In this document: one piece after another, positions 2,741 through 16,190 of the stretch
How positions within the stretch are numbered: the first letter of the stretch is position 1
How the letters are laid out: every line of letters begins with the position of its first letter
Assembly: GCA_002104935.1 (NCBI GenBank)
Contig: MCGT01000009.1
Span: 434,001 to 498,000, forward strand
DNA length: 64,000 nt
DNA from: Hesseltinella vesiculosa
Lineage: Eukaryota > Mucoromycota > Mucoromycetes > Mucorales > Cunninghamellaceae
Direction of reading: 5' to 3'
Notes under the pieces: model-generated
Seen by the model: only the letters and a program-made list of their open reading frames with translations
Database searches by the model: none
Told to the model about the DNA's origin: nothing
Translations under genes and position numbers: made by a program

Positions 2741-5700
2741 ACTTGACATACTATTTTTTTTTCAACGCTCATGTTTTCTGTGCCATGTTGGTTGATCATA
2801 AACGTCGATTTTGCAACTATCTTGCCAGGTTTTCTTTTCTCAGCAAAGCGGCGGCGTCACAGCTATTTTGGCCCACGTCCATTTTTCAACCGCCAACGTC
2901 CATTTTTTTTTTTTTAAGCTGGGGCTCTCCGCTTAATTTTCTCTTTCCAACGTCCATTTTTCTTCTTCCACATTCCATTTCTGTTTGGCCATGCCAAAGT
3001 CATTCTTTGCTTGACATCCCTTTTTTTTTTTCGACGATCATGTATTTCTGTGCCTTGTTGGCACTGTCAGCTACTTTGTTTTTCATAAACGTCGATTTTG
3101 CAACTATCTTGCCAGGTTTTCTTTTTTCAGCAAAGCGGCGGCGTCACAGCTATTTTGGCCCACGTCCATTTTTCAACCGCCAACGTCCATTTTTTTTTTT
3201 TTAAGCTGGGGCTCTCCGCTTAATTTTCTCTTTCCAACGTCCATTTTTCTTCTTCCACATTCCATTTCTGTTTGGCCATGCCAAAGTCATTCTTTGCTTG
3301 ACATCCCTTTTTTTTTTTCGACGATCATGTATTTCTGTGCCTTGTTGGCACTGCCAGCTACTTTGTTTTTCATAAACGTCGATTTTGCAACTATCTTGCC
3401 AGGTTTTCTTTTCTCAGCAAAGCGGCGGCGTCACAGCTATTTTGGCCCAACGTCCATTTTTCAACCGCCAACGTCCATTTTTTTTTTTTTAAGCTGGGGC
3501 TCTCCGCTTAATTTTCTCTTTCCAACGTCCATTTTTCTACGTCCACATTCCATTTCTGTTTGGCCATGCCAAAGTCATTCTTTATTTGACATCCCTTTTT
3601 TTTTTTCGACGATCATGTATTTCTGTGCCTTGTTGGCACTGCCAGCTACTTTGTTTTTCATAAACGTCGATTTTGCAACTATCTTGCCAGGTTTTCTTTT
3701 CTCAGCAAAGCGGCGGCGTCACAGCTATTTTGGCCCACGTCCATTTTTCAACCGCCAACGTCCATTTTTTTTTTTTTAAGCTGGGGCTCTCCGCTTAATT
3801 TTCTCTTTCCAACGTCCATTTTTCTTCTTCCACATTCCATTTCTGTTTGGCCATGCCAAAGTCATTCTTTGCTTGACATCCCTTTTTTTTTTTTCGACGA
3901 TCATGTATTTCTGTGCCTTGTTGGCACTGTCAGCTACTTTGTTTTTCATAAACGTCGATTTTGCAACTATCTTGCCAGGTTTTCTTTTTTCAGCAAAGCG
4001 GCGGCGTCACAGCTATTTTGGCCCACGTCCATTTTTCAACCGCCAACGTCCATTTTTTTTTTTTTAAGCTGGGGCTCTCCGCTTAATTTTCTCTTTCCAA
4101 CGTCCATTTTTCTTCTTCCACATTCCATTTCTGTTTGGCCATGCCAAAGTCATTCTTTGCTTGACATCCCTTTTTTTTTTTCGACGATCATGTATTTCTG
4201 TGCCTTGTTGGCACTGTCAGCTACTTTGTTGATCATAAACGTCGATTTTGCAACTATCTTGCCAGGTTTTCTTTTTTCAGCAAAGCGGCGGCGTCACAGC
4301 TATTTTGGCCCAACGTCCATTTTTCAACCGCCAACGTCCATTTTTTTTTTTTTAAGCTGGGGCTCTCCGCTTAATTTTCTCTTTCCAACGTCCATTTTTC
4401 TACGTCCACATTCCATTTCTGTTTGGCCATGCCAAAGTCATTCTTTGCTTGACATCCCTTTTTTTTTTTCGACGATCATGTATTTCTGTGCCTTGTTGGC
4501 ACTGTCAGCTACTTTGTTGATCATAAACGTCGATTTTGCAACTATCTTGCCAGGTTTTCTTTTTTCAGCATAAGTGGCGGCGTCACAGCTATTTTGGCCC
4601 AACGTCCATTTTTCAACCGCCAACGTCCATTTTTTTTTTTTAAGCTGGGGCTCTCCGCTTAATTTTCTCTTTCCAACGTCCATTTTTCTTCTTCCACATT
4701 CCATTTCTGTTTGGCCATGCCAAAGTCATTCTTTGCTTGACATCCCTTTTTTTTTTTCGACGATCATGTATTTCTGTGCCTTGTTGGCACTGTCAGCTAC
4801 TTTGTTGATCATAAACGTCGATTTTGCAACTATCTTGCCAGGTTTTCTTTTTTCAGCAAAGCGGCGGCGTCACAGCTATTTTGGCCCAACGTCCATTTTT
4901 CAACCGCCAACGTCCATTTTTTTTTTTTTAAGCTGGGGCTCTCCGCTTAATTTTCTCTTTCCAACGTCCATTTTTCTACGTCCACATTCCATTTCTGTTT
5001 GGCCATGCCAAAGTCATTCTTTGCTTGACATCCCTTTTTTTTTTTCGACGATCATGTATTTCTGTGCCTTGTTGGCACTGTCAGCTACTTTGTTTATCAT
5101 AAACGTCGATTTTGCAACTATCTTGCCAGGTTTTCTTTTCTCAGCAAAGAGGCGGCGTCACGGCTATTTTGGCCCACGTCCATTTTTCAACCGCCAACGT
5201 CCATTTTTTTTTTTTTAAGCTGGGGCTCTCCGCTTAATTTTCTCTTTCCAACGTCCATTTTTCTACGTCCACATTCCATTTCTGTTTGGCCATGCCAAAG
5301 TCATTCTTTGCTTGACATCCTTTTTTTTTTTTCGACGATCACATTTTGCTGTGCCTTGTTGGCACTGCCAGCTACTTTGTTGATCATAAACGTCGATTTT
5401 GCAACTATCTTGCCAGTTTTTCTTTTCTCAGCAAAGAGGCGGCGTCACAGCTATTTTGGCCCACGTCCATTTTTCAACCGCCAACGTCCATTTTTTTTTT
5501 TTTAAGCTGGGGCTCTCCGCTTAATTTTCTCTTTCCAACGTCCATTTTTCTTCTTCCACATTCCATTTCTGTTTGGCCATGCCAAAGTCATTCTTTGCTT
5601 GACATCCTTTTTTTTTTTTCGACGATCACATTTTGCTGTGCCTTGTTGGCACTGCCAGCTACTTTGTTGATCATAAACGTCGATTTTGCAACTATCTTGC

Positions 5701-8700
5701 CAGGTTTTCTTTTTTCAGCATAAGTGGCGGCGTCACGGCTATTTTGGCCCAACGTCCATTTTTCAACCGCCAACGTCCATTTTTTTTTTTTAAGCTGGGG
5801 CTCTCCGCTTAATTTTCTCTTTCCAACGTCCATTTTTCTACGTCCACATTCCATTTCTGTTTGGCCATGCCAAAGTCATTCTTTGCTTGACATCCCTTTT
5901 TTTTTTTCGACGATCATGTATTTCTGTGCCTTGTTGGCACTGTCAGCTACTTTGTTTTTCATAAACGTCGATTTTGCAACTATCTTGCCAGGTTTTCTTT
6001 TCTCAGCAAAGCGGCGGCGTCACAGCTATTTTGGCCCACGTCCATTTTTCAACCGCCAACGTCCATTTTTTTTTTTTTAAGCTGGGGCTCTCCGCTTAAT
6101 TTTCTCTTTCCAACGTCCATTTTTCTTCTTCCACATTCCATTTCTGTTTGGCCATGCCAAAGTCATTCTTTGCTTGACATCCCTTTTTTTTTTTCGACGA
6201 TCATGTATTTCTGTGCCTTGTTGGCACTGTCAGCTACTTTGTTGATCATAAACGTCGATTTTGCAACTATCTTGCCAGGTTTTCTTTTTTCAGCATAAGT
6301 GGCGGCGTCACAGCTATTTTGGCCCAACGTCCATTTTTCAACCGCCAACGTCCATTTTTTTTTTTTAAGCTGGGGCTCTCCGCTTAATTTTCTCTTTCCA
6401 ACGTCCATTTTTCTTCTTCCACATTCCATTTCTGTTTGGCCATGCCAAAGTCATTCTTTGCTTGACATCCCTTTTTTTTTTTCGACGATCATGTATTTCT
6501 GTGCCTTGTTGGCACTGTCAGCTACTTTGTTTTTCATAAACGTCGATTTTGCAACTATCTTGCCAGGTTTTCTTTTTTCAGCAAAGCGGCGGCGTCACAG
6601 CTATTTTGGCCCACGTCCATTTTTCAACCGCCAACGTCCATTTTTTTTTTTTTAAGCTGGGGCTCTCCGCTTAATTTTCTCTTTCCAACGTCCATTTTTC
6701 TTCTTCCACATTCCATTTCTGTTTGGCCATGCCAAAGTCATTCTTTGCTTGACATCCCTTTTTTTTTTTCGACGATCATGTATTTCTGTGCCTTGTTGGC
6801 ACTGTCAGCTACTTTGTTGATCATAAACGTCGATTTTGCAACTATCTTGCCAGGTTTTCTTTTTTCAGCAAAGCGGCGGCGTCACAGCTATTTTGGCCCA
6901 CGTCCATTTTTCAACCGCCAACGTCCATTTTTTTTTTTTTAAGCTGGGGCTCTCCGCTTAATTTTCTCTTTCCAACGTCCATTTTTCTACGTCCACATTC
7001 CATTTCTGTTTGGCCATGCCAAAGTCATTCTTTGCTTGACATCCTTTTTTTTTTTCGACGATCATGTATTTGCTGTGCCTTGTTGGCACTGTCAGCTACT
7101 TTGTTGATCATAAACGTCGATTTTGCAACTATCTTGCCAGTTTTCTTTTCTCAGCAAAGAGGCGGCGTCACAGCTATTTTGGCCCACGTCCATTTTTCAA
7201 CCGCCAACGTCCATTTTTTTTTTTTTAAGCTGGGGCTCTCCGCTTAATTTTCTCTTTCCAACGTCCATTTTTCTTCTTCCACATTCCATTTCTGTTTGGC
7301 CATGCCAAAGTCATTCTTTGCTTGACATCCTTTTTTTTTTTCGACGATCACATGTATTGCTGTGCCTTGTTGGCACTGTCAGCTACTTTGTTGATCATAA
7401 ACGTCGATTTTGCAACTATCTTGCCAGGTTTTCTTTTTTCAGCATAAGTGGCGGCGTCACGGCTATTTTGGCCCAACGTCCATTTTTCAACCGCCAACGT
7501 CCATTTTTTTTTTTTTAAGCTGGGGCTCTCCGCTTAATTTTCTCTTTCCAACGTCCATTTTTCTACGTCCACATTCCATTTCTGTTTGGCCATGCCAAAG
7601 TCATTCTTTGCTTGACATCCCTTTTTTTTTTTCGACGATCATGTATTTCTGTGCCTTGTTGGCACTGTCAGCTACTTTGTTTTTCATAAACGTCGATTTT
7701 GCAACTATCTTGCCAGGTTTTCTTTTCTCAGCAAAGCGGCGGCGTCACAGCTATTTTGGCCCACGTCCATTTTTCAACCGCCAACGTCCATTTTTTTTTT
7801 TTTAAGCTGGGGCTCTCCGCTTAATTTTCTCTTTCCAACGTCCATTTTTCTTCTTCCACATTCCATTTCTGTTTGGCCATGCCAAAGTCATTCTTTGCTT
7901 GACATCCCTTTTTTTTTTTCGACGATCATGTATTTCTGTGCCTTGTTGGCACTGTCAGCTACTTTGTTTTTCATAAACGTCGATTTTGCAACTATCTTGC
8001 CAGGTTTTCTTTTTTCAGCAAAGCGGCGGCGTCACAGCTATTTTGGCCCAACGTCCATTTTTCAACCGCCAACGTCCATTTTTTTTTTTTAAGCTGGGGC
8101 TCTCCGCTTAATTTTCTCTTTCCAACGTCCATTTTTCTTCTTCCACATTCCATTTCTGTTTGGCCATGCCAAAGCCATTCTTTGTTTGACATCCTTTTAT
8201 TTTTTCGATGATCACATTTTGTTGTGCCTTGTTGGCACTGTCAGCTACTTTGTTTATCATAAACGTCGATTTTGCAACTATCTTGCCAGGTTTTCTTTTT
8301 TCAGCAAAGCGGCGGCGTCACAGCTATTTTGGCCCACGTCCATTTTTCAACCGCCAACGTCCATTTTTTTTTTTTTAAGCTGGGGCTCTCCGCTTAATTT
8401 TCTCTTTCCAACGTCCATTTTTCTACGTCCACATTCCATTTCTGTTTGGCCATGCCAAAGTCATTCTTTGCTTGACATCCCTTTTTTTTTTCGACGATCA
8501 TGTATTTCTGTGCCTTGTTGGCACTGTCAGCTACTTTGTTGATCATAAACGTCGACTTTGCAACTATCTTGCCAGGTTTTCTTTTCACAGCAAAGCGGCG
8601 GCGTCACGGCTATTTTGGCCCAACGTCCATTTTTCAACCGCCAACGTCCATTTTTTTTTTTTAAGCTGGGGCTCTCCGCTTAATTTTCTCTTTCCAACGT

Positions 8701-8896
8701 CCATTTTTCTTCTTCCACATTCCATTTCTGTTTGGCCATGCCAAAGCCATTCTTTGCTTGACATCCTTTTTTTTTTCTCGACGATCATGTATTGCTATGC
8801 CTTGTTGGTACTGTCAGCTACTTTGTTGATCGTAAACGTTGATTTTGCAACTATCTTGCCAGGTTTTCTTTTCTCAGCAAAGCGGCGGCGTCACAG
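2741..8896. repeat. Tandem array of about 287 bp units, 21 full copies plus partial ends
   Basis: The landmark AAGCTGGGGCTCTCCGC recurs about every 287-288 bases: near 2917, 3204, 3490, 3778, 4065 and so on to 8663, 21 times. Each unit carries two T runs of 10-13, a conserved CGTCGATTTTGCAACTATC block, and three ACGTCCATTTTT boxes. Units differ at a few diagnostic sites: CTTCTTCCAC or CTACGTCCAC at the box end, GTTTTTCAT or GTTGATCAT before the CGTCGAT block, and CAGCAAAGCGG or CAGCATAAGTGG. These variants recur in mixed order, which points to recent amplification and homogenisation. Long open frames on the plus strand simply follow the repeat and are not taken as genes. Left and right halves of one further, diverged unit lie at 12048-12222 and 14436-14495. 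Confidence 0.97.
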
Positions 8897-8940
8897 CAAT
8901 TTTTAACAGCTTTCAACTGTTTAGTGAAAACGATGAACAC

Positions 8941-9519: not shown

Positions 9520-11216
9520 ATGACGCGCACTCTCCATAATGAGGGAGCAGGATCGTCAATGGATGACACTTGCACTGAACTAAAGTTTTTGATTGCAGAG
9601 GATGGTAAGAATGAATAGATTGAGATAACTGCCGTGTAACTTTTTTTTTTAAAACAGCAATCGTGTTTGTACCGAAAGTCAATGGCAAATACACATGCCC
9701 GCTGTATGATTGTCGAAAGCAATATGTAAGCCTTGATTCATTTCGAAAACATGCTTGCCAAAAACACAAAGACTCTCAAGTTCATGGCGAAAGAGCAGCC
9801 AAGAAAAGACGAATGGAGTCAATTGCGCGTCTGCCTTCATTCTCGAAAGCTCAAGGTTGTCAACAAGTGTTCAACTTGGACAACGGCTCTAGATCTCTTA
9901 ATTTGTCCGCTACCTTTGATTGTGAACCCTTCGCTCTCAACATTGCCTTGAATTCTACCGAGGACCCTCTCACTCTTTATGCCGTCGCTCAGGCCGAAAC
10001 TCTACAACAAGCCTTTGCCATTCTACCTCGTGAGACTGCAACAACGACGCAACCAATGCTATCGTCTCTCCAAATCCATGATGTTGTAAAATTGTGCCAA
10101 GGCACAGAAATTGGCACGGAAGACAGGGCTGTGATTCTCGGGGAAGCTGGAGCGCGACTCCAAAGAGTGATGAAAAATTCTTGGTTGCCACGACTTTCAG
10201 AAAAATATGGAGATTATGCGGAGCCCGGTGAACCCCTCCTGGCTGCTTTGAATGCCGATTTTCGGTTTCAACCTGGCCTTTTGAAGGCTGTGGCTGAATT
10301 GCATGCGGGTGCAATCGTTGTGGATAAAGACGTCACTCTTGCCTTGGTGTGTGAGGCATATGCGCGAAGCAAATCTGTCGACGTTCACAGCGAATCTTTA
10401 AACCTGTCCTTGCCCTCATCAAACCCTTCATCGGCCTACCCCTCCACCCTCACTGCTGGGGTTTTCAACGAAGCAGACGGCCATGGGACCAAAGCAAAGC
10501 TAAAGATTGCAAGTAAGACTATGAATATACTTGTGACGATGGCCGCATCATTGCTGCATGATAGGCACGTCGATGTTGGGCCCTCATCCTCTTCCACCAA
10601 TCTTACTCTTCGCCCAGGCAAAGTAAAAGTATTTTACCTGAAAGAAAAGATGGAGGCATTTTTGGCTCGTGCTCATGGTGAATGCCCCTTGTCAACTCAG
10701 CTTACAATTTCGTCACTCCGCCAGCTGACGTCAAGTTTCAACGACCCTAGCACATTCATGCCATGGCGAGCGCATCTTGAAAGCCTTCTTGCTAATGACC
10801 ATGAGTTACCAGCGACGGTTTTCACCCTTTGCGATTTGCCACATAACCAAGGGTATGGCACAGGTAATATGTCACCTGAAAAACTGGCATCTCGCTTGCT
10901 ACAAGCAGTTGCCCAATCATTTTTGGATCGGAGCAAAGCTGTTGACTTCTGCACCCCCCTGAAGTTGATCAAAGCACTCTTGCGACAGCGCGTTGAGAAA
11001 TCAATGCAGCCAAGCAAAGAGTGGTCAACTTTAGCGAGGATTGCTGAAAAGCTCGACGGTTTAGCTGATGATTCCCTGTCTTCACCTGAATATGTGACCT
11101 CCGTTTGCGACTTCACCGCCTTGGCAAGCATTGCTGCAGCCAAACTGGCCAATGCAAATGCCAAGGTCAAGGAGATTGTGGAATCCAAACTGATCCATCA
11201 GTTTGGTGAAGAATGA
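9520..11216 (+). CDS. Unrecognised protein with one N-terminal C2H2 zinc finger
   Basis: Two exons, 9520-9604 and 9658-11216, give 547 aa. The first exon ends in a clean GTAAGA donor and the second starts after AAAACAG. I do not recognise the family. A single C2H2 finger is visible near the N-terminus, Cys42-x4-Cys47-x12-His60-x4-His65. It is followed by a basic patch (RAAKKRRMES) that could be a nuclear localisation signal. The rest is a mixed helical protein with no transposase, polymerase or nuclease motif that I can name. It lies between the array/minisatellite and a broken OYE copy. Like the gene at 12427 it pairs a C2H2 finger with an unknown body, so both may belong to the same mobile or repeat-associated unit. 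The open frame is intact and long, which argues against a relic. Confidence 0.75.
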
Positions 11217-11499
11217 CTCCTTTCGCTCCCCTCCTGATTCCCTTCCCCCTGCTGCCTCACCTTAAAAAAAAAAAAAAAAAAAAAAACTGTTCCCCCCACT
11301 TGAAAATGAAAGGTTGCTTCCGACCATCCTCCACAATATCCACAGAAAATGGCACCTGCTTCCGTTTTAATCGCGGGCGTCACTGGCAACCTGCACTGGC
11401 ACGGCCTCGCCCAGCCCTACAACTAATAAAAATCATAACATTCATTCTCACTTATTTTTTTGCAACTTCCCTTTTATTTTTTTCAATTTTATCCAGATC
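11217..11499. other. Spacer with A run and a short block shared with 14.66-14.75 kb
   Basis: An A run occupies about 11263-11285. At 11349 a short frame starts with VLIAGVTGNL, which resembles the start of a Rossmann-fold NAD(P)-binding protein, but it ends after 25 codons. The stretch 11420-11480, around CAACTAATAAAAATCATAAC, is repeated at about 14660-14725. It abuts the truncated OYE copy at a CTTGTG microhomology near 11500. Confidence 0.6.
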
Positions 11500-12047
11500 C
11501 TTGTGGATCAATTCATCAACTCCTCGAGCAACAACCGCACCGACGACTACGGCGGCAGTAGCGCAAACCGTGCTCGCTTTGCCCTGGAGATCACCGACGC
11601 GGTTGTCAGCAGAATCGGCGAAGAAAAGACCGCCATCCGTCCATCACTCATTTCTTTTTTTTTATTGGCTAGCTGGTAACTACTCGGAAGACTACAAGGA
11701 AGCCTATGCCCAAACCGAAAAGCATGCCAACACCATCATTGCCATTGGCCGTGCCTTTTTAGCCAATCCTGATCTGGTAGAACGTATCCGTAACCATTGG
11801 CCGCTGAATAAGTATGACCGCGACACGTTTTACGCTATCGGCACCCCACCTACCAGCAAACCATGCAAGCCTAGATTCCATTTTTATTAGACCTCTTTCA
11901 ATAATAAACCACCATCGATTTCATCTGTACGACAGCTCTCGAGAATGGCATTTGTCAATGTCAAGGTTGAATCCAAAGTCCGAGTCATTTGTGGATCAAG
12001 GTCGGTGCTGTTGCAGAAAATGGTGGGGGTAAACGATGCATTGGCGA
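11500..12047 (+). pseudogene. Truncated OYE copy 2 with its 3' flank
   Basis: The sequence follows the intact OYE gene from its third coding exon (CTTGTGGATCAATTC) but is broken. A deletion of about 270 bases removes the third intron, the fourth exon and part of the fourth intron, joining ATCCG to TCCATCACTC near 11641. A further gap of about 22 bases lies near 11845. The 3' flank is kept up to about 12047, where it changes abruptly into a diverged array unit. There is no start region and no full barrel, so it cannot encode an active enzyme. Nucleotide identity in the retained parts is very high, so the duplication is recent. Confidence 0.9.
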
Positions 12048-12222
12048 TGGTGCACTTTTTTTTTTCAACGATCATGTTTTCCTGTGCCTTGTTGGTGCTG
12101 CCAGCTACTTCGTTTTTCAAAAACGTCGATTACGCAACTGTCTTGCCTGGTTTTCTTTTCTTCAGCATAACGGCGTCACAGCCATTTTTGGCCCGACGTC
12201 CATTTTTCAACCGCCAACGTAA
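12048..12222. repeat. Left half of one diverged 287 bp array unit
   Basis: This piece runs from the T run and CAACGATCATG through AACGTCGATTACGCAACTG to ACCGCCAACGT, in the array unit order but with about a dozen differences. The missing right half of the same unit appears at 14436-14495, on the other side of the gene at 12427-14363. The unit therefore appears split by an inserted block. Confidence 0.85.
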
Positions 12223-12244
12223 AAAAAAAATAAAAAATTCAAAA

Positions 12245-12347
12245 TGAGATTGCCCCAAGATTGCCCCAAGATTGCCCCAAGATTGCCCCAAGATTGCCCC
12301 GCGAAAATATTTACCCGGGAACGCGGTGCAATCTCAGGGCAATCTCA
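12245..12347. repeat. GATTGCCCCAA tandem repeat with flanking inverted repeat
   Basis: Five head-to-tail copies of the 11-mer GATTGCCCCAA fill 12248-12300. TGAGATTGCCC at 12245-12255 pairs with GGGCAATCTCA at 12337-12347, so a hairpin with several registers is possible. It lies about 80 bases upstream of the ATG of the C2H2/nuclease-like gene and may be the end of the inserted block or a binding site. Confidence 0.85.
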
Positions 12348-12426
12348 AAAAAAAAAAAAGAGAGAAACTGGTTTCTCCCATCTGTTTTTTTTTTTGTCAA
12401 CTTTACATATCAACTTGTTTACTATC

Positions 12427-14363
12427 ATGGCAACTAAGAAAATATTTCTCGATATTTCGTGTTATTTATGTGTATCTAGTTTCCAACGTAAACAAAAATT
12501 GCGTGTTCATTTACAACAACGCCACAATGTTTGCCTGAATGCAGCGAAACAAGGTGCATTTTCTATGCCTCTGCCAAACTCATCGTTCGTTGATGAACGT
12601 AAAGATGCTGATACGGTCATGTACAGCTGTCCTTCCTGTGTCCTTTATTTTGAATCCTTGGAACAACTTGAATCCCATATTAATAATCATCATTTACAAG
12701 CCCCAACAATTGCAGAGAGCAGCAACAGCAACAGCGCGTCCAGCGACATTCCTTTGCAAACAGCGGATACTTCACTCTCTCAAGAATACCGGCTCCTTTA
12801 TGCTCCTCCATCAGATGATAACGAATTTAATGCTTCATCTCCATGCTCAAACGTCACCGAAGATTATAATCCGAAACGACGTGCTGAATATGTCCTGGAA
12901 GTAGAACTGGCAATAAGCGAGAGTGAAAAGCAGCTTGTACGTCAAGAATATCGATATGACGAAGTGGAGCCGCATGATCAAGTGCTTTCCAGCAATTGGT
13001 TACTTAACGATTATGATATTTCTCAAGCATGTATCCAATTTCAGTCAAGTACACGAAAATTACCAATGAAGCCTCAAGCGTTATCTGATCTGCGTTTACT
13101 GTAAGTTTATGGAAGCCGTAGTAATTTGAAACATCTCCTTGATCTTATTTTTCTCCCACGTCACAGGGCCTTGAATAATGTGTTCTTATTCGACAATGAT
13201 TTGCGATATTCTGTATCAAAATATTTTCAAGACAGCATGCACGACGCCATTATCAAAGAGTTTGAACAATATACCACATACATACCTCCTAACCCCAAGA
13301 TGGCTTTGGAATGGTGCAATGATATATCGTTGGTAATAAATAATAAAGATAAGATTATGTAAAGGTGGTTTACTTTTTTTGTATTGTAGACACCACCAAA
13401 AACATGGCTGCAGGCATTATCTTTGTCAGCCGACTGCTTGACGACGGCGACCAAGAATGGAAATGCGTGCGATGTGCAAACGGCACATACCCTTGTTCAA
13501 ATGTAAGTATTACAAAAATGAATTCTGCGTACGTTTCTTTGACTGATCATCCATCGTTCTATTTTAGTTTACCCATGCTTGTATCGCGTCCTCCAGACTC
13601 ATCTCTTGAAGATTCTCATGTCCACAACTTTGTTGCTCCATTGATCAAAACTGTTTTTGGTGAAGAATTCCAGATTTTTTGGTATGCAATTCTTTAATAC
13701 GCGATGATTTTTTTTGGAAATACTCATCGTGTTTTTGCATTGTTTGGGTGTTAGGGCGAACGGATCTTTGTCATCCGACCTGAAACCGGACTTTCTGGTT
13801 TCCAAGGAAGCAGCAAGTTCCAAATACAACCTCGTTGTTGGAGAAGTAAAGCGCCCAAATCATCGAAGCAACCAAGAAGAATCGGATCTCGTCAAACTTG
13901 GCAAGGAGCTAAAGGTAATGTATAATCAATTGGTCGTGCAACGTGTTTCCTCTCCCGTCGTTTGTGGTATTTTGATCGATGGCTTCCAATTGTCCACGTA
14001 TACGTTTGATCTGGCAGCACCGATAGTTTATCGTATGTATCGTGTTTGCGAGGTCCAGCTCTTTCAAAACATTATGCAATTGATGACGTTACCTGTGATC
14101 TTGAATCGCATTGTGCAATTAAAGGTATGCGATGCATATATACAGAAGTTTGTCAATTATAATGTTTGTTTTTTTATGGGTAATCGAATTAGAACATCGT
14201 TATGGAAACTTCCAAGAAGTCCAAACAGGCAAGCATTGAGAAGCATTGCGGACAAAATCTTAGTCCCCATTTACCACCGCTTCATTGGTTATCAAATCAA
14301 ACATGCTCATTGTCAAGAAAAAAAGCGTGCAAAATTATCAAAAATGAAATTCTGGAAGGCTGA
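12427..14363 (+). CDS. Two C2H2 fingers plus PD-(D/E)XK-like nuclease core; putative novel DNA-acting protein
   Basis: Six exons (12427-13100, 13167-13332, 13390-13502, 13568-13681, 13755-14124, 14193-14363) join without frame errors into 535 aa. Two C2H2 fingers are visible: Cys12-x2-Cys15-x12-His28-x4-His33, and Cys68-x2-Cys71-x12-His84 with His88/His89. The C-terminal third contains SSDLKPDF followed by NLVVGEVKRP. This matches the PD-(D/E)XK pattern, with Asp368 and Glu386-x-Lys388 on predicted strands, and is followed by ESDLVKLGKELKVM. The nuclease reading is inference from this motif. I recall similar blocks in unnamed Mucorales proteins but cannot verify it. All introns are canonical and there are no stops, so the gene is probably functional. 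It lies between two halves of a single array unit. It could be a site-specific endonuclease of a mobile element, a repeat-binding factor, or a domesticated nuclease. Confidence 0.7.
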
Positions 14364-14435
14364 GCATCTCTCCATTAATCGTTGCCGTTCCCTTTGGTTT
14401 ATTTTTTATCTCCCTGACATCGTGCATTTCATCGC
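14364..14435. other. 3' flank of the nuclease-like gene
   Basis: A short AT-rich tail ends in a T run that merges into the right half of the split array unit. I see no inverted repeat matching the hairpin at 12245-12347. Confidence 0.5.
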
Positions 14436-14495
14436 TTTTTTTTTAAAGCTGGGGCTCTCCGCTTAATTTTCTTTACGTCCGTTTTTCTTCCGTGG
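14436..14495. repeat. Right half of the split 287 bp array unit
   Basis: A T run followed by AAGCTGGGGCTCTCCGC and TTAATTTTCTTTACGTCCG reproduces the second part of an array unit. Together with 12048-12222 it accounts for one complete unit. Confidence 0.85.

Positions 14496-14888: not shown

Positions 14889-16190
<1,302 letters not shown>

Follow-up and report, generated by a model that had tools for sequence, protein, structure and literature searches.

The 64,000-nucleotide stretch of Hesseltinella vesiculosa DNA analysed here (the window; contig MCGT01000009.1, positions 434,001 to 498,000 of the forward strand) comes from a 27-Mb assembly in 85 contigs of a fungus of the Mucorales (Cunninghamellaceae). 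It contains a gene whose 535-residue product joins two C2H2 zinc fingers, here called the header, to a core predicted to have the PD-(D/E)XK nuclease fold. The features of this gene, all in window coordinates, are as follows.

12427-13100, 13167-13332, 13390-13502, 13568-13681, 13755-14124 and 14193-14363, forward strand: exons of the gene, 535 amino acids plus stop
12427-13100, forward strand: exon 1, two-finger header (residues 1-90) followed by a linker up to residue 224
12460-12525, forward strand: C2H2 finger 1, residues 12-33, consensus spacing; C12, C15 and H28 invariant in 11 headers of this genome
12628-12690, forward strand: C2H2 finger 2, residues 68-88; C68, C71 and H84 invariant in 11 headers of this genome
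13167-13332, forward strand: exon 2, from our splicing and comparison with a deposited protein
13390-13502, forward strand: exon 3, from our splicing and comparison with a deposited protein
13568-13681, forward strand: exon 4, start of the predicted nuclease core; helix 1 with E332 and H337
13608-14058, forward strand, with intron 13682-13754 inside: predicted PD-(D/E)XK core, residues 332-457, from the AlphaFold model and VIA-align matches
13755-14124, forward strand: exon 5, remainder of the predicted core
13786-13791, forward strand: P367-D368, expected catalytic Asp; D in 37 of the 39 alignment rows having a residue, own row included
13843-13851, forward strand: E386-V387-K388, ExK motif; E in 39 and K in 38 of the 40 rows having a residue, own row included
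14193-14363, forward strand: exon 6, C-terminal basic tail and stop

On translation, five introns of 57-73 nt, all GT..AG, join the six exons cleanly and in frame, as a preliminary description of this DNA had proposed. A protein-to-DNA aligner returned the identical five introns, which, because the query was our own protein, checks the program only. Residues 249-535 are exactly identical to the deposited H. vesiculosa protein DM01DRAFT_299896 (P0009), so the junctions from exons 2/3 to 5/6 were also called by the depositors; the finger exon (exon 1) is omitted from that deposited model. That the finger exon is nonetheless part of the gene is argued by paralogue L007, which matches residues 141-524 in a single unbroken frame at 38% identity, and by intron 1 (codon 225, phase 2), whose position and phase are repeated in the models of paralogues L041, L045 and L050. 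Judged from these sequence comparisons, the finger exon is tied to exons 2-6 in one gene. Counterparts were also found for intron 3 (codon 318, phase 2; L042, L046), intron 4 (codon 356, phase 2; L038, L040, L042, L043, L046) and intron 5 (codon 480, phase 0; L039), and for intron 2 (codon 281) none was found in the nine paralogue models examined. Thus four of the five introns recur in paralogues, the coinciding introns being 11 of the 53 in the nine models, where many of the remaining modelled introns sit at doubtful gene ends.

The AlphaFold model (residue = model number + 248) has the order alpha-beta-beta-beta-alpha-beta, with helices at 84-100 and 152-169 and strands at 105-108, 121-127, 130-140 and 177-183, and places residues 332-457 in the PD-(D/E)XK fold. 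The Asp lies before strand 2 and the (D/E)xK on strand 3, and both are conserved among relatives. The preliminary description had picked out Asp368 and Glu386-x-Lys388 and had suggested this fold; the residues are present, the set is conserved among homologues rather than variable, and the predicted fold is not an unrelated one. The best VIA-align matches to the model are the nuclease domains of BpuSI (3s1s) and DrdV (7lvv, 7lo5), which are type IIG restriction enzymes with what we take to be a catalytic motif of the PD-(D/E)XK kind. The core fold is common to all three by VIA-align, but the identity in the aligned part is ∼10%, the window protein is fungal and C2H2-headed, and the methyltransferase and target-recognition domain of these enzymes were not found in it. 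By predicted fold and conserved motif, we conclude that the protein is a member of the PD-(D/E)XK superfamily.

The two fingers have consensus spacing at the Cys and His residues first proposed: finger 1 reads C-x2-C-x3-F-x5-L-x2-H-x4-H (ligands 12/15/28/33) and finger 2 reads C-x2-C-x3-F-x5-L-x2-H-x3-H (ligands 68/71/84/88). Six of the eight zinc ligands are invariant across the 11 headers, and finger 2 matches Pfam zf-C2H2_4 with E=1.9e-5 and 25.4 bits, below the gathering cut-off of 27. The fusion of fingers to a core is real and recurs in paralogues. The fingers are 34 residues apart and form no close DNA-reading array; the description of the protein as finger-guided was not borne out.

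The same two-finger header also precedes other cores in this genome. It is followed in L052 and L037 by a class II core (RPDI/RPDA..EVK), in L053 by a class III core (VDGLGID..LVLEISGG) and in L051 by the C-terminal part of a family that includes a neighbour of the window gene, at 9624-11216; in L052, L053 and L051 the header and the downstream part lie in one unbroken frame. Profiles of class I, the class of the window gene, and class II matched each other over 163 columns (E 2.6e-5) and 126 columns (E 2.6e-4) with the PD and ExK aligned, and the class III to class II match was weak (E 0.014, probability 3%). Nineteen of 30 header places are followed within 3 kb, in the same orientation, by a listed place of a core class or of the neighbour family, where 0.2 would be expected (class I, 6; class II, 9; class III, 3; neighbour family, 1); 3 of 30 have such a place upstream and 2 of 30 have one on the other strand. 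The header most similar to that of the window gene (49%) belongs to L037, whose core is of class II, and in a tree of 16 headers a single clade of class I headers was rejected (p-AU 0.00014); the simplest reading of these two results is that header and core recombined more than once. The header appears to have been joined more than once to two or more homologous core classes (KPDF..GEVK and RPDA..GEVK), possibly to a third, and once to an unrelated domain, a pattern suggestive of shuffling within a set of proteins that would cut DNA or RNA.

The core belongs to a large family. A search of the whole genome gave 46 matches at E≤0.01; class I core places number 22 among those listed, the window included, although two of them (on C24) are pieces of one gene, and they are 25-45% identical to the window's core where matched. 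Some copies have stops within the matched stretch, which introns can also yield. Searching protein sequences with the core and a full-length profile yielded 41 relatives besides two proteins from this locus, many of them Mucorales proteins named hypothetical, uncharacterized or unnamed; those from Mucorales that cover much of the core do so at 36-83% identity (39-83% to P0008). The named sources are Spinellus, Mucor, Rhizopus, Parasitella, Gilbertella, Benjaminiella, Phycomyces, Pilobolus, Backusella and Thamnidium, all of which we take to be Mucorales genera. On the evidence of these matches, the core alone is widespread in Mucorales. A C2H2 regular expression run on all 43 proteins found fingers in P0010 alone, which corresponds to exon 1 of the window gene. 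A prokaryotic or viral origin was considered and rejected: of the 397 and 101 stretches that matched patterns derived from alignment A8, tblastn confirmed none. We found no description of the family in the open-licence PMC literature, which does not exclude that one exists. Two things are new, the uncurated core family and the exchangeable finger header.

Three known systems invite comparison. R2-type non-LTR retrotransposons encode a protein that has both zinc fingers and a restriction-like endonuclease, a combination resembling that of the window protein; the reverse transcriptase of R2 gave no Pfam match up to E 1 in the window protein. The SPOK genes of Podospora are likewise fungal and multi-copy and encode a PD-(D/E)XK domain (PMC6660238), and SPOK killing requires that domain and disrupts DNA (PMC6660238, PMC9972908). 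However, SPOK proteins additionally have a coiled coil, a cluster of cysteines and a C-terminal kinase domain, whereas the window protein starts with zinc fingers, and no kinase domain, a feature of both SPOK and Crinkler proteins, was matched in it by Pfam up to E 1. Crinkler (CRN/CR) proteins have a common N-terminal header and diverse C-termini, often of restriction-endonuclease fold (PMC5289972), a modular plan resembling that of the window protein. The Crinkler header, in contrast, is ubiquitin-like with an LFLAK-type motif, and the window protein begins with a finger pair, lacks the letters LFLAK anywhere in its 535 residues and gave no Pfam match to an NTPase domain up to E 1. As judged by these searches, the window protein fails the tested defining features of Crinkler, SPOK and R2 proteins.

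We think it likely that the gene encodes an intracellular, probably nuclear, metal-dependent PD-(D/E)XK nuclease with an exchangeable finger header that would choose its target. The core is likely to be an active nuclease in which D368, E386 and K388 would form the active site, binding metal and cutting the phosphodiester bond, with helix 1 bearing E332 and H337 and helix 2 beginning at about D400..K403. The header could plausibly be an adaptor, its two widely spaced fingers binding DNA, RNA or a protein partner and so picking the target for the core. Basic tails, for example KKQKK in homologues P0007 and P0008, suggest a nuclear site. A role in conflict with selfish or foreign nucleic acids is our least certain step, a guess by analogy from copy number, divergence and likeness to SPOK and Crinkler proteins. 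The computations show the gene structure, the predicted fold, the conservation, the size of the family and the sharing of the header; catalysis, targeting by the fingers, nuclear location and repeated exchange of the header are inferences. Of the preliminary description, the PD-(D/E)XK fold and the finger fusion are supported; finger guidance, mobility and genome defence were not borne out.

Several results weigh against the target-choosing nuclease that we favour. Foldseek with the model found nothing at E≤0.001; a Pfam/NCBIfam scan of the 42 rows of family alignment A7 gave a best E of 0.008, to an unrelated family, and zero nuclease families; and sequence-profile searches of the PDB left the core unmatched, with one zinc-finger match at E 0.18 only. 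(The best PHROGs match, at E 0.085, was not useful.) Compared with the restriction enzymes, mitoribosomal large-subunit chains (PDB 5ool_5, 9uwh_s and others) match more residues of the model at nearly equal Z, so the fold by itself is no proof of cutting. D368 is lost in P0029 and P0043, E386 in P0035, and K388 in P0031 and P0035, and further alignment rows are gapped at these positions. For 11 of the 30 headers the lists used contain no core downstream, finger 1 is missing its second His in the headers of L047 and L054, and the header tree is weak: some of its branches are long, and good support was obtained for 2 of the 13 inner ones. Among the 41 homologues found elsewhere no finger was seen, a count limited by partial proteins, by wrong deposited N-termini and by the header alone having been unsearched outside this genome; in other Mucorales the core was thus found without fingers, and the fingers would be dispensable for the core's wider job.

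The surroundings of the gene bear on whether it is mobile. Two features frame it.

12221-14435, no strand: gene-holding segment, which splits one 287-bp repeat unit into 12056-12220 and 14436-14490
12247-12300, forward strand: array of an 11-bp unit, AGATTGCCCCA x 4.9, 127-180 nt upstream of the ATG

An array of the 287-bp unit occupies window positions 2791-8903 (21.3 copies, 97% match), loose pieces of it flank the gene on both sides, and around the gene there are incomplete copies of another gene, judged by eye to be flavin oxidoreductase-like. The interrupted unit is compatible with insertion, but recombination between repeats would look alike. No target duplication was seen by eye at 12220/14436, and the 64-kb window contains no inverted repeat of at least 100 nt, shorter ones being unsearched there. 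Inverted repeats were also sought at 15 family loci (4 at ≥60 nt, 11 at ≥80 nt) and found at seven; in six of these (L035, L037, L039, L045, L052 and L058) the arms hold or flank family sequence, and in L046 they lie downstream of it. Two relatives adjoin transposon genes. In L036:1459-4139 a MULE transposase open reading frame (ORF) precedes a single header finger, which is followed by a class I core that shares its frame with a retropepsin-like domain; on the reverse strand of L047, an integrase-chromodomain ORF stops <300 nt upstream of the start of an orphan two-finger header in the same orientation.

One alternative is that the protein is an ordinary Mucorales nuclease with a housekeeping role (DNA repair, RNA processing), multiplied in this species, its fingers a neutral addition. 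We regard this as possible but rather less probable: several Mucorales genera do have relatives without fingers that match much of the core at 36-83% identity, but a single housekeeping gene would need no such number as the 22 diverged class I core places listed in one 27-Mb genome (25-45% identical where matched), and header exchange also argues against it. Inactive members of the PD-(D/E)XK fold are common, and the good match of mitoribosomal chains to the model, together with the few homologues without catalytic residues, would fit a non-cutting nucleic-acid binder of the right fold; since D368, E386 and K388 are intact in the window protein and nearly all rows, we consider such a binder unlikely.

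A cutting core could also serve selfish ends. An endonuclease of a mobile element, cutting a target to copy its own gene in, would fit the split 287-bp unit, the transposon genes beside L036 and L047 and the inverted arms around or beside several paralogues. It is nevertheless improbable, given the absence of long inverted repeats and of a visible target duplication in the window, copies too diverged for recent spread, and arms elsewhere that vary in length and layout. We know of no antidote gene for the window gene, and Pfam revealed neither a kinase nor any other resistance domain in its product, which makes unlikely a selfish killer like Spok or a Crinkler-type effector whose core harms cells or nuclei without the gene and whose header varies target or delivery. 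Many diverged copies, some with internal stops in the matched stretch (which introns can also cause), would suit such a killer, as would the dependence of SPOK killing on a PD-(D/E)XK domain, with disruption of DNA (PMC6660238, PMC9972908), and the Crinkler plan of modular headers and restriction-fold C-termini (PMC5289972).

The core represents a PD-(D/E)XK family undescribed in the Pfam and NCBIfam collections searched and present in many Mucorales proteins. Should the core prove to cut, early-diverging fungi would possess a large and so far unstudied repertoire of nucleases with an exchangeable finger header, an early-diverging-fungal case of the variable header plus nuclease core plan seen in Crinkler effectors. 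More speculatively, and in our estimate doubtful, the genome may hold a modular nuclease arsenal, in which a travelling header is exchanged among restriction-fold lineages and tens of diverged finger-headed nucleases take part in nuclear conflict as spore killers, transposon restrictors or both; the inverted partial copies at six loci could then supply restraining hairpin RNAs.

An exact 20-mer searched from the 11-bp array occurs nowhere else in the genome. L037 likewise has an 11-bp, 4.9-copy array, of a different unit, ∼153-206 nt upstream of its ATG, and among 13 upstream regions such an array was present in these two alone; both are possible candidate self-binding sites. The idea that header genes are generally marked by tandem arrays upstream was rejected (3 of 13 upstream regions versus 21 of 100 control pieces). 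The neighbour gene at 9624-11216 (forward strand) is a 530-residue open frame that contains a single C2H2-like finger and matches no Pfam family above cut-off; it has 26 genome matches, itself included, several in one long frame. With an hhalign E of 0.46, and again no Pfam match above cut-off, it was rejected as a second nuclease. The flavin oxidoreductase-like gene and its two partial copies (880-2215, 11490-11890 and 14946-15694) represent a local segmental duplication. At L045, inverted arms of ∼2.1 kb (568-2691 and 5375-7459), 99-100% alike, contain the header and flank the rest of a class I gene; the arms at L037, L052, L058, L039 and L035 are shorter.
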